A DNA stretch of 64,000 bases from Hyphomicrobiales bacterium (GTDB lineage Bacteria > Pseudomonadota > Alphaproteobacteria > Rhizobiales > Beijerinckiaceae): assembly GCA_027489955.1 (NCBI GenBank), contig JAIXYZ010000001.1, forward strand, positions 62,001-126,000, read 5' to 3'. The position numbers and the translations under genes were made by a program. Every line of letters begins with the position of its first letter. The stretch's first letter is position 1. Below the pieces are notes generated by a model. That model had not been told where the DNA came from. It did no database searches and saw only the letters and a program-made list of their open reading frames with translations. This document shows positions 591 through 55,347 of this stretch, one piece after another.

Positions 591-666
591 GCTCCCTTCG
601 TCTAGCGGTCTAGGACGTCGCCCTCTCACGGCGAAAACAGGGGTTCGAGTCCCCTAGGGAGCGCCA
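591..666 (+). tRNA. tRNA-Glu (anticodon CTC)
   Basis: A complete cloverleaf is visible. The acceptor stem GCTCCCT pairs with AGGGAGC, the discriminator is G, and CCA is encoded at 664-666. The anticodon arm TCGCC-CTCTCAC-GGCGA presents CTC, which reads GAG. The T arm has the canonical GGTTCGAGTCC. The CTAGCGGTCTAGG D-arm is typical of bacterial tRNA-Glu. No integrase or attachment-site duplication is seen next to it. Confidence 0.97.
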
Positions 667-27624: not shown

Positions 27625-27734
27625 GGGGAAGGCTTCTGCGGATCGTCCTGTCCCGCGAACCAAGCCCGAGACCGCGGCGGTTGGCAAGGCGGGACTTGAT
27701 CGGCGGGGGCGGGCGAGCGAAGGAGGGATAAGTG

Positions 27735-27887
27735 CGGAGCCGCGAAAGCCGTTGGATGATCGATCCCGGGAACCTACAGAGTAGGTGGGCGCCGTATGCC
27801 CGGGTCCACGGACCCGGCCAGGGACAGCTCCCTAGGAGATCGATAAGGCCCCGGGGAATGTGTCTCCTGACGAGCCCCGCAGCACCG
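27735..27887 (-). ncRNA. ssrS: 6S RNA (SsrS) candidate
   Basis: The 318-base gap between zapA and the folate cyclo-ligase gene, both minus strand, is where proteobacteria keep 6S RNA. On the minus strand it holds stable helices: AGGGA-GCTG-TCCCT, CCGGGTCC-GT-GGACCCGG as the apical hairpin, and ACCTAC-TCT-GTAGGT on the far side of a possible central bubble, enclosed by ATCGATC/GATCGAT. A TATGTT -10-like element at about 27894-27899 would start transcription near 27887. Ends are estimates from structure, giving about 153 nt, the normal size. 6S RNA traps sigma-70 RNA polymerase in stationary phase. Confidence 0.72.
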
Positions 27888-27942
27888 CGCCATCAACATA
27901 GTGCGCCGGGGCTCCGCGCGGAAGGGGCTCTTTCCGGGAAGT

Positions 27943-43651: not shown

Positions 43652-44179
43652 TCAGCGGCCGGGAAAGGCCGCGCGCAGGAGGTCGAGCTGGCCGGCGATG
43701 GGATTGGTGACGATCTCCGGCATCGGCGCACGCTCCTCGCTCATCAGCGCGTCGAGGTGGCGGATGCGGGCCTGCAGGCGCGAGGACTGCTCGATCAGGT
43801 CGCGCAGCTTCTCCGGCAGGAGCTCGATCGCCTGCGGGTTGGACACGGTCTCGTTGCCGTTGACGCGGATGCGGTGCCGGTCGCCCTGGGCCTGCTCCGG
43901 CGACAGCTCGCCCTCGGCGACAGCGCGTTGCAGCAGCAGCCAGGAGGCGAGCTGCATGAGGCGCGTGGTTAGGCGCATGCTCTCGGTGGCGTAGCTGAGG
44001 GCGCCCATGCGCTGCAGGGCGCGGGCCTCCTCGCGGCCGGGGCCGTCGAGATAGCTCGCGGTCTCCTCGACCAGAGCCATGCCTTCGCGGAACAGGGCGC
44101 GGAACGCATCCGAGGACACGAAGCGCTTGGCGAACGGGATGGCGGCGTCGGGGTCCATGGCGGTGGCGAATTCGGTCAT
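43652..44179 (-). CDS. rcdA: RcdA (DUF1465), regulator of CtrA degradation
   Basis: A 175-aa member of DUF1465, the RcdA family. In Caulobacter RcdA is an adaptor that links CtrA and other substrates to the CpdR-ClpXP protease. Visible family features are RFVSSDAFRALFREGMALVE, ETASYLDGPGREEARAL and the helical stretch LPEKLRDLIEQSSRLQARI. ATG 44179 is used; reading on upstream would run through a terminator. Two tandem TTAAC half-sites (44296-44306) lie about 120 bases upstream and may be CtrA half-sites. Confidence 0.85.
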   Translation of the reverse strand: MTEFATAMDPDAAIPFAKRFVSSDAFRALFREGMALVEETASYLDGPGREEARALQRMGALSYATESMRLTTRLMQLASWLLLQRAVAEGELSPEQAQGDRHRIRVNGNETVSNPQAIELLPEKLRDLIEQSSRLQARIRHLDALMSEERAPMPEIVTNPIAGQLDLLRAAFPGR

Positions 44180-44322
44180 AGGCTCTTGCTCTCCCGGCTC
44201 GGGCCGCTGTCCCGGCTGGGGACGGCGCGGCAGCACATGAAGCCGATGTCGCAAGGATAGCGCCGCCGGGCCATCCGGCGACCGCTCATCAAACATTAAC
44301 CTTAACGCTGTGGACAACCACG

Positions 44323-44417
44323 AAAAAAAGCCGCCCGAAGGCGGCTTGTGAAAGTCATAACAGGGAGGCGTCAAACAGAGTGACAGGAGCCACTCGACAT
44401 CCAGAAAACTGGATACG
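44323..44417 (-). ncRNA. candidate small RNA between the DUF1192 gene and rcdA
   Basis: About 95 nt on the minus strand fold into three hairpins: ATCCAG-TTTT-CTGGAT (44399-44414), GAGTG-GCTCCTGT-CACTC (44378-44395) with a CTCCT loop complementary to ribosome sites, and a terminator AAGCCGCC-TTCG-GGCGGCTT followed by TTTTTTT (44323-44347). A single-stranded CGCCTCCCTG lies between the last two. A CtrA box and a TTATTA -10-like element sit upstream. No protein-coding reading is plausible. The form is that of a trans-acting sRNA that pairs with Shine-Dalgarno regions. Its 5' end is inferred. Confidence 0.68.
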
Positions 44418-44439
44418 AGGCAGTAATAACCTGGAAAGC

Positions 44440-44455
44440 TTAAGCAGCCGTTAAC
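44440..44455 (-). promoter_or_regulatory. CtrA-binding box
   Basis: TTAA-GCAGCCG-TTAAC fits the full CtrA consensus TTAA-N7-TTAAC exactly. It is centred about 31 bases upstream of the predicted start of the small RNA on the minus strand, where CtrA activates transcription, and about 268 bases upstream of the rcdA start. Confidence 0.72.
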
Positions 44456-44490
44456 GCGAAGACAGGGCAATCGCCGTTCGCCTTGGCCCG

Positions 44491-44685
44491 TCACGTCTTG
44501 AAGAACGAAGCGGCCGCATCGCGGGATGCTTCCTTGCGGCTCCGGTCGGCCTCAAGGCGCACGATTTCCTGCCGCAACACCGCGATGCGCTCGTCGAGTT
44601 CCCCTACGGAGAGCAGGCTGAGATCCTGGCCAATCTCGTGGGCGGGACGTGGGCGCGGGCGGTCGTCGTCAATGGTGAACGTCAT
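44491..44685 (-). CDS. DUF1192 small protein
   Basis: A 64-aa protein starting at ATG 44685 with the DUF1192 pattern: LSLLSVGELDERIAVLRQEI then VRLEADRSRKEASRDAA, ending FFKT. The C-terminal two thirds is a predicted helix. Function unknown; the family is confined to alphaproteobacteria and often sits beside DUF1465 and DUF1013 genes, as here. It is divergent from trcR. Confidence 0.82.
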   Translation of the reverse strand: MTFTIDDDRPRPRPAHEIGQDLSLLSVGELDERIAVLRQEIVRLEADRSRKEASRDAAASFFKT

Positions 44686-44942: not shown

Positions 44943-45677
44943 ATGTCCACCGGACCGCTGATGCCCAAGGCCACGGCCGTTTGGCTCGTGGAGAACACGT
45001 CCCTGACGTTCGAGCAGATCGCCGACTTCTGCAAGCTCCACCCCCTCGAGGTGAAGGGCATCGCCGACGGAGAGGTCGCGGCCGGCATCAAGGGCCAGGA
45101 CCCCGTGGCCCGGGGCGAGCTCTCCCGCGAGGAGCTGGACAAGGCGCAGGCCGATCCGGCCCACCGCCTGAAGCTCCTGGAGCCGAAGGTGCGCCTGCCC
45201 GATTTCGGCAAGGTGAAGAAGGGGCCGCGCTACACGCCGGTCTCGCGCCGCCAGGACCGCCCGAACGCGATCCTCTGGCTCGTGCGCAATCATCCTGAGC
45301 TGAAGGACGCCCAGATCATCCGCCTGGTCGGCACGACCAAGACGACGATCCAGCAGATCAAGGAGCGCACCCACTGGAACTCGGCGAGCCTCTCGCCGAT
45401 GGACCCGGTGACGCTTGGCCTGTGCTCGCAGATCGACCTCGACTTCGAGGTCGGCCGCGCCGCCAAGGACCGTCCCGCCGTCGTCCCGGCCGAGGCCGAC
45501 CAGACGCTGCTGCCGGCCGAGCAGACCACCGCGCCGGCCGCTCCGGCGGCGGAACCCTTCGGCCGCATGGAGCCCCCGACGCGCCGCGAGGAAGAGAAGA
45601 TCGACGTGGATTCGGTCTTCGCCAAGCTGAAGACGCTCAAGCGCTCCGACGATCACGACGACGGCCTCGACGACTGA
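44943..45677 (+). CDS. trcR: TrcR (DUF1013) cell-cycle transcription factor
   Basis: A 244-aa DUF1013 protein. The family was shown to act with RNA polymerase in Caulobacter and to affect the cell cycle. The start MPKATAVWLVENTSLTFEQI and the tract DRPNAILWLVRNHPELKDAQ followed by IIRLVGTTKTTIQQIKERTH are diagnostic. The tail (about 180-244) is acidic and Pro/Ala-rich. It is divergent from DUF1192 and convergent with the metallopeptidase gene. Confidence 0.85.
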   Translation: MSTGPLMPKATAVWLVENTSLTFEQIADFCKLHPLEVKGIADGEVAAGIKGQDPVARGELSREELDKAQADPAHRLKLLEPKVRLPDFGKVKKGPRYTPVSRRQDRPNAILWLVRNHPELKDAQIIRLVGTTKTTIQQIKERTHWNSASLSPMDPVTLGLCSQIDLDFEVGRAAKDRPAVVPAEADQTLLPAEQTTAPAAPAAEPFGRMEPPTRREEEKIDVDSVFAKLKTLKRSDDHDDGLDD

Positions 45678-55081: not shown

Positions 55082-55347
55082 CGTGTCTGCGTCGATCCCG
55101 GTTCAGGTCTGGTCCGGCCGGCCTTCACGCTCCAAGCACGTTCGCGCCCGAGGGCGCTGCGCGCTGTCGGGCGGGGACCTCCGGCCTCTTTAGTCGGACC
55201 GGTCGGCGGGTGTCGGATCGCTCTGTCGGGCGAATTATGCCGCCGCTCATGACGCCGGCGCGGTGGAAAGTCAAGATTGGAGCGGTCCACCGGGCTTGGC
55301 GCCGCGTAGGATGGCGGCCGTCCGGACAGGCCGGACCGGAGGATGAT

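Follow-up and report, generated by a model that had tools for sequence, protein, structure and literature searches.

The minus strand of the window, the whole 64-kb stretch of DNA analysed here, encodes between rcdA and a DUF1192 gene a small RNA that is a member of the catalogued, and thus already known, BjrC1505 family (Rfam RF02356). That this locus is an RNA gene, and that it is conserved, is near certain, and a link of the RNA to CtrA is likely; what is new here is the regulatory context of the RF02356 RNA, not the family. The RF02356 match covers 44321-44463 on the minus strand with 90.6 bits against a gathering score of 50 bits (E 6.5e-16, whole window). It is full-length, running from model position 1 to 140, with hairpins, linker and terminator all the same, and both the score and the consensus hairpins with the conserved linker place the RNA within the family. 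The original prediction, which presented the sRNA as undescribed, was therefore wrong on this point. The genome to which the window belongs has one RF02356 match. The Rfam title of the family gives no function; the name BjrC1505 is said to come from Madhugiri 2012, where expression in Bradyrhizobium was reportedly found, and it appears in the open literature in a table of Herbaspirillum RNAs. A paper on Bradyrhizobium transcription start sites names, in its accessible text, BjrC68 and BjrC174, not BjrC1505 (PMC4842269).

Folding of the minus strand at 44323-44417 gave -36.3 kcal/mol (z -5.3), with none of 200 shuffles equally stable, in agreement with the three hairpins originally proposed there. 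Hairpin 1 (44399-44414, minus strand; ATCCAG TTTT CTGGAT, in the RNA AUCCAG-UUUU-CUGGAU) and hairpin 2 (44378-44395, minus strand; GAGTGGCTCCTGTCACTC, loop with CUCCUGU) are each supported by the fold, the family consensus and covariation in the diverged alignment A2 (see below). An 8-nt loop GCUCCUGU had been drawn for hairpin 2; it is open, on a 5-bp stem, in the family consensus, whereas the fold of the window sequence closes it in part, as GAGUGGC-UCCU-GUCACUC. The alignment reveals a near-invariant linker, TTTGACGCCTCCCTGTTA (44358-44375, minus strand), presumed to be the seed or anti-Shine-Dalgarno segment, and a weak fourth hairpin in the fold displays CCUCCC. The intrinsic terminator (44323-44347, minus strand), seen in both fold and sequence, is as originally described, a perfect hairpin with a UUCG loop (TTCG in the DNA) and then seven T residues; its stem is of 8 bp. 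A peptide from a tiny ORF inside the RNA (ATG TCG AGT GGC TCC TGT CAC TCT GTT TGA, 9 codons) was considered and rejected, because alignment A1 shows no conservation of the ORF start and because the stems covary. Elsewhere in the window, matches were obtained to 6S RNA (27733-27888, minus strand; RF00013, 91.7 bits), to the RF01793 'ffh' sRNA (55137-55188, minus strand; 54.3 bits, gathering score 35) and to a tRNA gene (591-663, plus strand; RF00005, 61.6 bits).

The mature sRNA of about 95 nt is placed at 44323-44417 on the minus strand by the fold, by the Rfam match over 44321-44463 and by a promoter-free model, R1, built from 50 transcripts of 34 families with the promoter left out. R1 matches 44321-44418 with 89.7 bits, the window sequence being one of its 50, and the 5′ end would fall at about 44415-44418. 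The Rfam model begins 46 nt upstream of the 95-nt unit first proposed, and its first third, positions 1 to about 43, appears to be a CtrA-type box and promoter and not RNA. Since the extra 46 nt look like a promoter, the 95-nt unit is probably the transcript itself; the Rfam model, which probably contains the promoter, should then be trimmed before target prediction.

The linker and the stems of the RNA are conserved in different ways. The linker GCCUCCCUGU is invariant in the 50 aligned sequences, and GCCTCCCTGT within it is the same in 50/50, across 34 families. The same 50-sequence alignment has changes on both sides in 6 of the 18 predicted pairs. A more diverged set, A2 (55 matches, 52 distinct rows), has such changes in 16 of 18 pairs, and 96.1% of its cells pair, against 34-47% in a control in which the partners were slid; A2 was aligned to the model and hence leans towards it. 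All three hairpins covary in A2, both sides having changed in 6/6 pairs of hairpin 1 and 5/5 pairs of hairpin 2. Base pairs in the stems are thus exchanged and the CU-rich linker is preserved, as is typical of an RNA in which the single-stranded part is important. With stems and single-stranded segments strongly conserved in relatives, the claim of a conserved trans-type sRNA gene with CU-rich, potentially anti-Shine-Dalgarno segments withstood the conservation check proposed along with it. One genome (G050) apparently lacks hairpin 1.

Upstream of the RNA is a CtrA-type box, TTAACGGCTGCTTAA (44440-44454, minus strand), which matches the consensus TTAA-N7-TTAA and is conserved in homologous loci. 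Relative to the likely 5′ end it spans about -24 to -38, the usual position of CtrA activation, and it ends 22 positions before the start of the R1 match. The consensus is that given in the accessible text of three published reports (PMC12403871, PMC7200025, PMC3616915). At up to one mismatch the box is the only TTAA-N7-TTAA in the 64-kb window; 21 of 100 shuffles also have one, so that this uniqueness is not significant by itself. The stricter pattern TTAACN6TTAA occurs at 12 sites in the genome (17 strand matches), compared with 2 for a reversed-pattern control, and others of these sites precede ORFs for a flagellar rod protein, a lytic transglycolase, uroporphyrinogen decarboxylase, a glutathione S-transferase and a PAS protein. 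The genome also encodes CtrA, at 96% identity to a Caulobacter query sequence. A presumed -10 element, TTATTAC (44423-44429, minus strand), was assigned from the sequence; it corresponds to a weakly conserved T/A-rich stretch, 25-32 nt from the box start, that reaches up to 0.8 bits (family-weighted) among 86 sequences chosen for having the box. A sigma-70 scan listed no promoter at the sRNA start. Because the presumed -10 is weakly conserved, the case for a promoter is carried by the box.

Indeed, in a set of 91 homologues, these being the stronger Rfam matches, 88 are preceded by a box of at least 7/8, which is perfect in 38 of them. The scan took the best box within 130 nt before the linker; when these stretches were shuffled, a score of at least 7 was obtained in 6.6% and of 8 in 0.3%. 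The position is similar too, 73 of the 88 boxes starting 75-82 nt before the linker. Since the Rfam model includes the box positions, the 88/91 is biased towards loci having a box. Fifty further loci comprised 28 weaker Rfam matches, 10 loci from outside the order and 12 found by RcdA, and among the 49 whose upstream sequence is long enough, 46 carry a box of 7/8 or better. The 12 RcdA-found loci, located by the RcdA protein and then by the promoter-free R1, provide a fairer test: 11 have a box of at least 7/8 where 1.9 would be expected, and 8 have a perfect one where the expectation is 0.15. Three of these 12 come from genomes of about 20% GC, in which chance often yields 7/8; weak R1 matches (E 0.001 to 0.003) account for four of the 12, and one locus (L123) reaches only 6/8. 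Judged by a conserved TTAA-N7-TTAA box at its promoter, the sRNA gene is a candidate member of the CtrA regulon.

The family is widespread in the order. The Rfam model (E <= 0.001) found RF02356 in 245 of 297 genomes of the order, 212 of them above the gathering score, and in none of 14 control genomes, among them Caulobacter vibrioides. In a class-wide sample 30 of 289 genomes matched (14 above the gathering score), three from the window's own family and 27 from outside the order. Twenty genomes drawn from the 52 of the order that had no RF02356 match were searched for the RcdA protein, which was present in 13; R1 detected a relative ahead of rcdA at 8 of the 13 loci, with four of these matches weak (E 0.001 to 0.003 again), and none at the remaining 5. 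The S. meliloti locus has an R1 relative upstream of rcdA with 40.6 bits, where the Rfam model gives 27.2 bits, below its cut-off. Further R1 relatives lie upstream of rcdA in Shinella, another Sinorhizobium and Methylobacterium bullatum; R1 found nothing in a Rhizobium leguminosarum plasmid locus (L141). Six genomes (G017, G024, G049, G097, G297 and G504) have two RF02356 matches each, perhaps through duplication or contamination.

The cell-cycle neighbourhood is as the original prediction had it: the RNA is flanked by rcdA downstream (DUF1465, a CtrA-degradation adaptor; 43652-44179; Pfam PF07323, E 4e-57) and the DUF1192 gene upstream (44491-44685; Pfam PF06698), all on the minus strand, with trcR divergent (44943-45677, plus strand; Pfam PF06242). 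Across the 91 loci, 89 have rcdA downstream in the same orientation; DUF1192 was found upstream in 69, and trcR was found in 36 (flanks of limited length searched). Among the 50 further loci rcdA is present at 41, of which 12 had been found through RcdA, and it is present at 6 of the 10 loci outside the order. Both the RNA and a box of 7 or 8 are retained in five genomes in which DUF1465 has no match at all; four of them (G017, G120, G050 and G121) represent three families of the order and the fifth (G297) is from outside it, four families in all. In three genomes of one family (f93) the DUF1465 match is about 41-45 kb away, with in-frame stops in two, and in three draft genomes (G007, G009 and G016) it is on another contig. 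The retention of RNA and box without DUF1465 indicates that the two form a unit of their own. Four near-complete genomes of families f45 and f18 (G045, G085, G064 and G100) have neither a DUF1465 nor an RF02356 match. G120 and G017, which belong to these two families, likewise lack DUF1465 but have retained the sRNA; this pattern perhaps reflects stepwise loss of the CtrA-degradation locus.

The interval between terminator and rcdA was scanned for boxes as well. A box of at least 7/8 occurs there in 19 of 89 loci, against 2.9 expected; the best in the window is 6/8. Second, proximal TTAA-N7-TTAA boxes lie between the sRNA terminator and rcdA in S. meliloti (locus L137, 2839-2853) and Shinella (L138, 2843-2857), and three loci of family f24 also have a box in this interval. 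Given such second boxes, CtrA may control both the sRNA and rcdA in some lineages; in most of the lineages studied, among them that of the window, it is the sRNA that has the strong box. With a proximal box in S. meliloti as well, the published CtrA ChIP site may correspond to either of the two.

We consider it fairly probable that the locus is a CtrA-controlled BjrC1505 sRNA gene with its own promoter, and that its product is a trans-acting sRNA that blocks Shine-Dalgarno sites. CtrA would bind the TTAA-N7-TTAA box at 44440-44454, over the -35 region, and would most likely activate transcription. The RNA of about 95 nt would start near 44416 and end at the UUCG terminator before rcdA, and its linker, UUUGACGCCUCCCUGU, together with the CUCCUGU loop, would pair with the Shine-Dalgarno regions of target mRNAs, whose translation would be lowered while CtrA is active; the adjoining rcdA would feed the removal of CtrA. 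Here we infer the 5′ end, the binding of CtrA and its sign, and the base-pairing in trans.

Four other explanations were considered. That the RNA is a cis-acting leader or attenuator of rcdA, an early-terminated 5′ leader whose read-through yields the rcdA mRNA, with the box as the rcdA promoter, is quite unlikely. It would be in keeping with the same-strand rcdA downstream at 89 of the 91 loci, with Brilli et al. 2010, who place rcdA among genes with conserved predicted CtrA control in a cluster including Rhizobiales (PMC2877005), and with the CtrA motifs upstream of the S. meliloti rcdA transcription start sites (PMC3616915). However, the five genomes with RNA and box have no DUF1465 match genome-wide, the match is tens of kilobases off in the three f93 genomes, and an attenuator has no need of a linker conserved as sequence; moreover, Pini et al. 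2015 describe CtrA binding to the rcdA promoter region in S. meliloti, where rcdA is nonetheless unresponsive to CtrA depletion (PMC4433202). Elsewhere CtrA is described as activating rcdA directly in Caulobacter (PMC4433202), rcdA as not regulated by CtrA in Hyphomonas (PMC7200025), and agrobacterial rcdA as having multiple start sites, with CtrA sites further upstream than in Caulobacter (PMC10469942). An sRNA promoter upstream of rcdA would fit the reports from Rhizobiales; none of these papers mentions the sRNA in its accessible parts, and a search chiefly of the open-access literature found no link between BjrC1505 (RF02356) and CtrA. As a minority of lineages have a box nearer rcdA, and as CtrA reportedly activates rcdA in Caulobacter, whose representative among the control genomes has no RF02356 match, a CtrA site before rcdA need not mean the sRNA. 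Origin of the RNA by cleavage from the 3′ UTR of the DUF1192 mRNA, with no promoter of its own, is highly unlikely: DUF1192 does immediately precede the RNA, in the same orientation, at 69 of the 91 loci, and the sigma-70 scan gave no promoter, but this origin is at odds with the conserved CtrA-type box at similar spacing before hairpin 1 (the presumed -10 being weakly conserved). The sign of regulation could also be the reverse, CtrA or another factor on the box repressing the sRNA so that it accumulates at low CtrA. Sequence cannot tell activation from repression; the box position of about -24 to -38, where CtrA usually activates, makes this unlikely.

The remaining alternative, that the linker binds a protein or another RNA, as a sponge would, and not Shine-Dalgarno sites, is doubtful, though the extreme conservation of the linker and the lack of a recurring Shine-Dalgarno-complementary target would suit it. 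Perfect 13-nt complements of the linker occur at 60 places in 50 genomes; the sRNA gene accounts for 49 of these places and an additional RF02356 copy (G024) for one, leaving 10 others. A strict 9-nt Shine-Dalgarno-complement pattern, CAGGGAGGC-N2-9-ATG, was sought in 20 genomes (one without a match) and gave at least 130 hits. Among the matches listed, from which 100 stretches and 30 loci were taken, 91 of 130 have an ORF of 60 aa or more; similar proteins form one group of 4 (ABC-type ATPases by sequence) and otherwise six pairs, and no orthologue recurs widely among these 130 hits from 20 genomes. Duplex energies of the sRNA core against mRNA leaders gave mean z values of -0.45 for ctrA (3/20 below -1.5), 0.12 for gcrA (2/20), -0.11 for rcdA (1/20), 0.37 for DUF1192, -0.49 for trcR (2/12), 0.23 for rpmE and 0.00 for the ABC gene; with the linker alone they were 0.52 for ctrA, 0.29 for gcrA, 0.10 for rcdA and -0.44 for trcR, the rest being positive. 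Pairing with the ctrA, gcrA and rcdA leaders is thus at shuffle level in 20 genomes, by a crude duplex energy that ignores accessibility. Against the sponge or protein-binding role, CCUCCC and CUCCU are anti-Shine-Dalgarno-like, and the Shine-Dalgarno test was confined to a single strict 9-nt pattern and a subset of the hits.

Comparison with known sRNAs, taken from the accessible text of the cited papers, separates the window RNA from EcpR1, kinship to which had been raised as a question at the outset. EcpR1 (SmelC291, RF02500) is likewise an sRNA beside cell-cycle genes and with a terminator, and represses gcrA and dnaA in S. meliloti (PMC4414408). It differs in its covariance family, its rpmG/pleD locus, its loop UCCGCCGCAUCU and its two hairpins, and in being stress-induced from a sigma-70-type promoter. 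In S. meliloti we located EcpR1 by RF02500 (87.9 bits) downstream of rpmG, on the other strand, in the divK-pleD locus, and its loop UCCGCCGCAUCU is present near rpmG. Kinship was rejected: RF02500 has no match at the window sRNA locus up to E 5, the window has no exact copy of the loop (two one-mismatch copies elsewhere in it are at chance level), and R1 finds nothing up to E 10 in two EcpR1 loci (L377 and L378). EcpR1 and the window RNA are different families.

The strongest analogy is CcnA of Caulobacter crescentus, also an ncRNA, which has a C-rich loop and whose promoter contains a predicted CtrA site; CcnA acts on ctrA and gcrA mRNAs (PMC8959179). The window RNA may work alike, by analogy of description, but CcnA lies at the replication origin, and for the window RNA the crude duplex energies over 20 genomes gave no ctrA or gcrA pairing signal. 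The mmgR / suhB RNA (RF00519) shares CCUCCCU followed by a GC-rich terminator; its match at the window locus is weak, at 21.1 bits against a gathering score of 41, and in its 77-position model nothing corresponds to hairpin 1 or the box. GspR (SmelC775) of S. meliloti resembles the window RNA, by description, in its three hairpins, and represses ctrA; it differs in lying between SMc03844 and SMc03845 and in having no known promoter signatures before it (PMC5928217). SmelA075/SmelA099 likewise have C-rich anti-Shine-Dalgarno motifs in loops, but repeat the loop CCUCCUCCC, whereas the window RNA has a single CCUCCC in the linker and CUCCU in a loop (PMC3927594). In the accessible descriptions of GspR, PmaR and the Reinkensmeier families we found no tie to this locus.

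On balance we lean, if only slightly, towards a broader reading, in which the CtrA cell-cycle switch of Rhizobiales and some other Alphaproteobacteria has in BjrC1505 a conserved RNA output that forms part of the locus for CtrA degradation, so that CtrA drives the sRNA and rcdA removes CtrA, and in which the CtrA sites credited to rcdA in this order are mostly those of the sRNA. If true, this would explain how CtrA binds at rcdA in S. meliloti without a change in rcdA expression. The box, found across much of the order and kept even without rcdA, makes the sRNA a candidate core member of the CtrA regulon.
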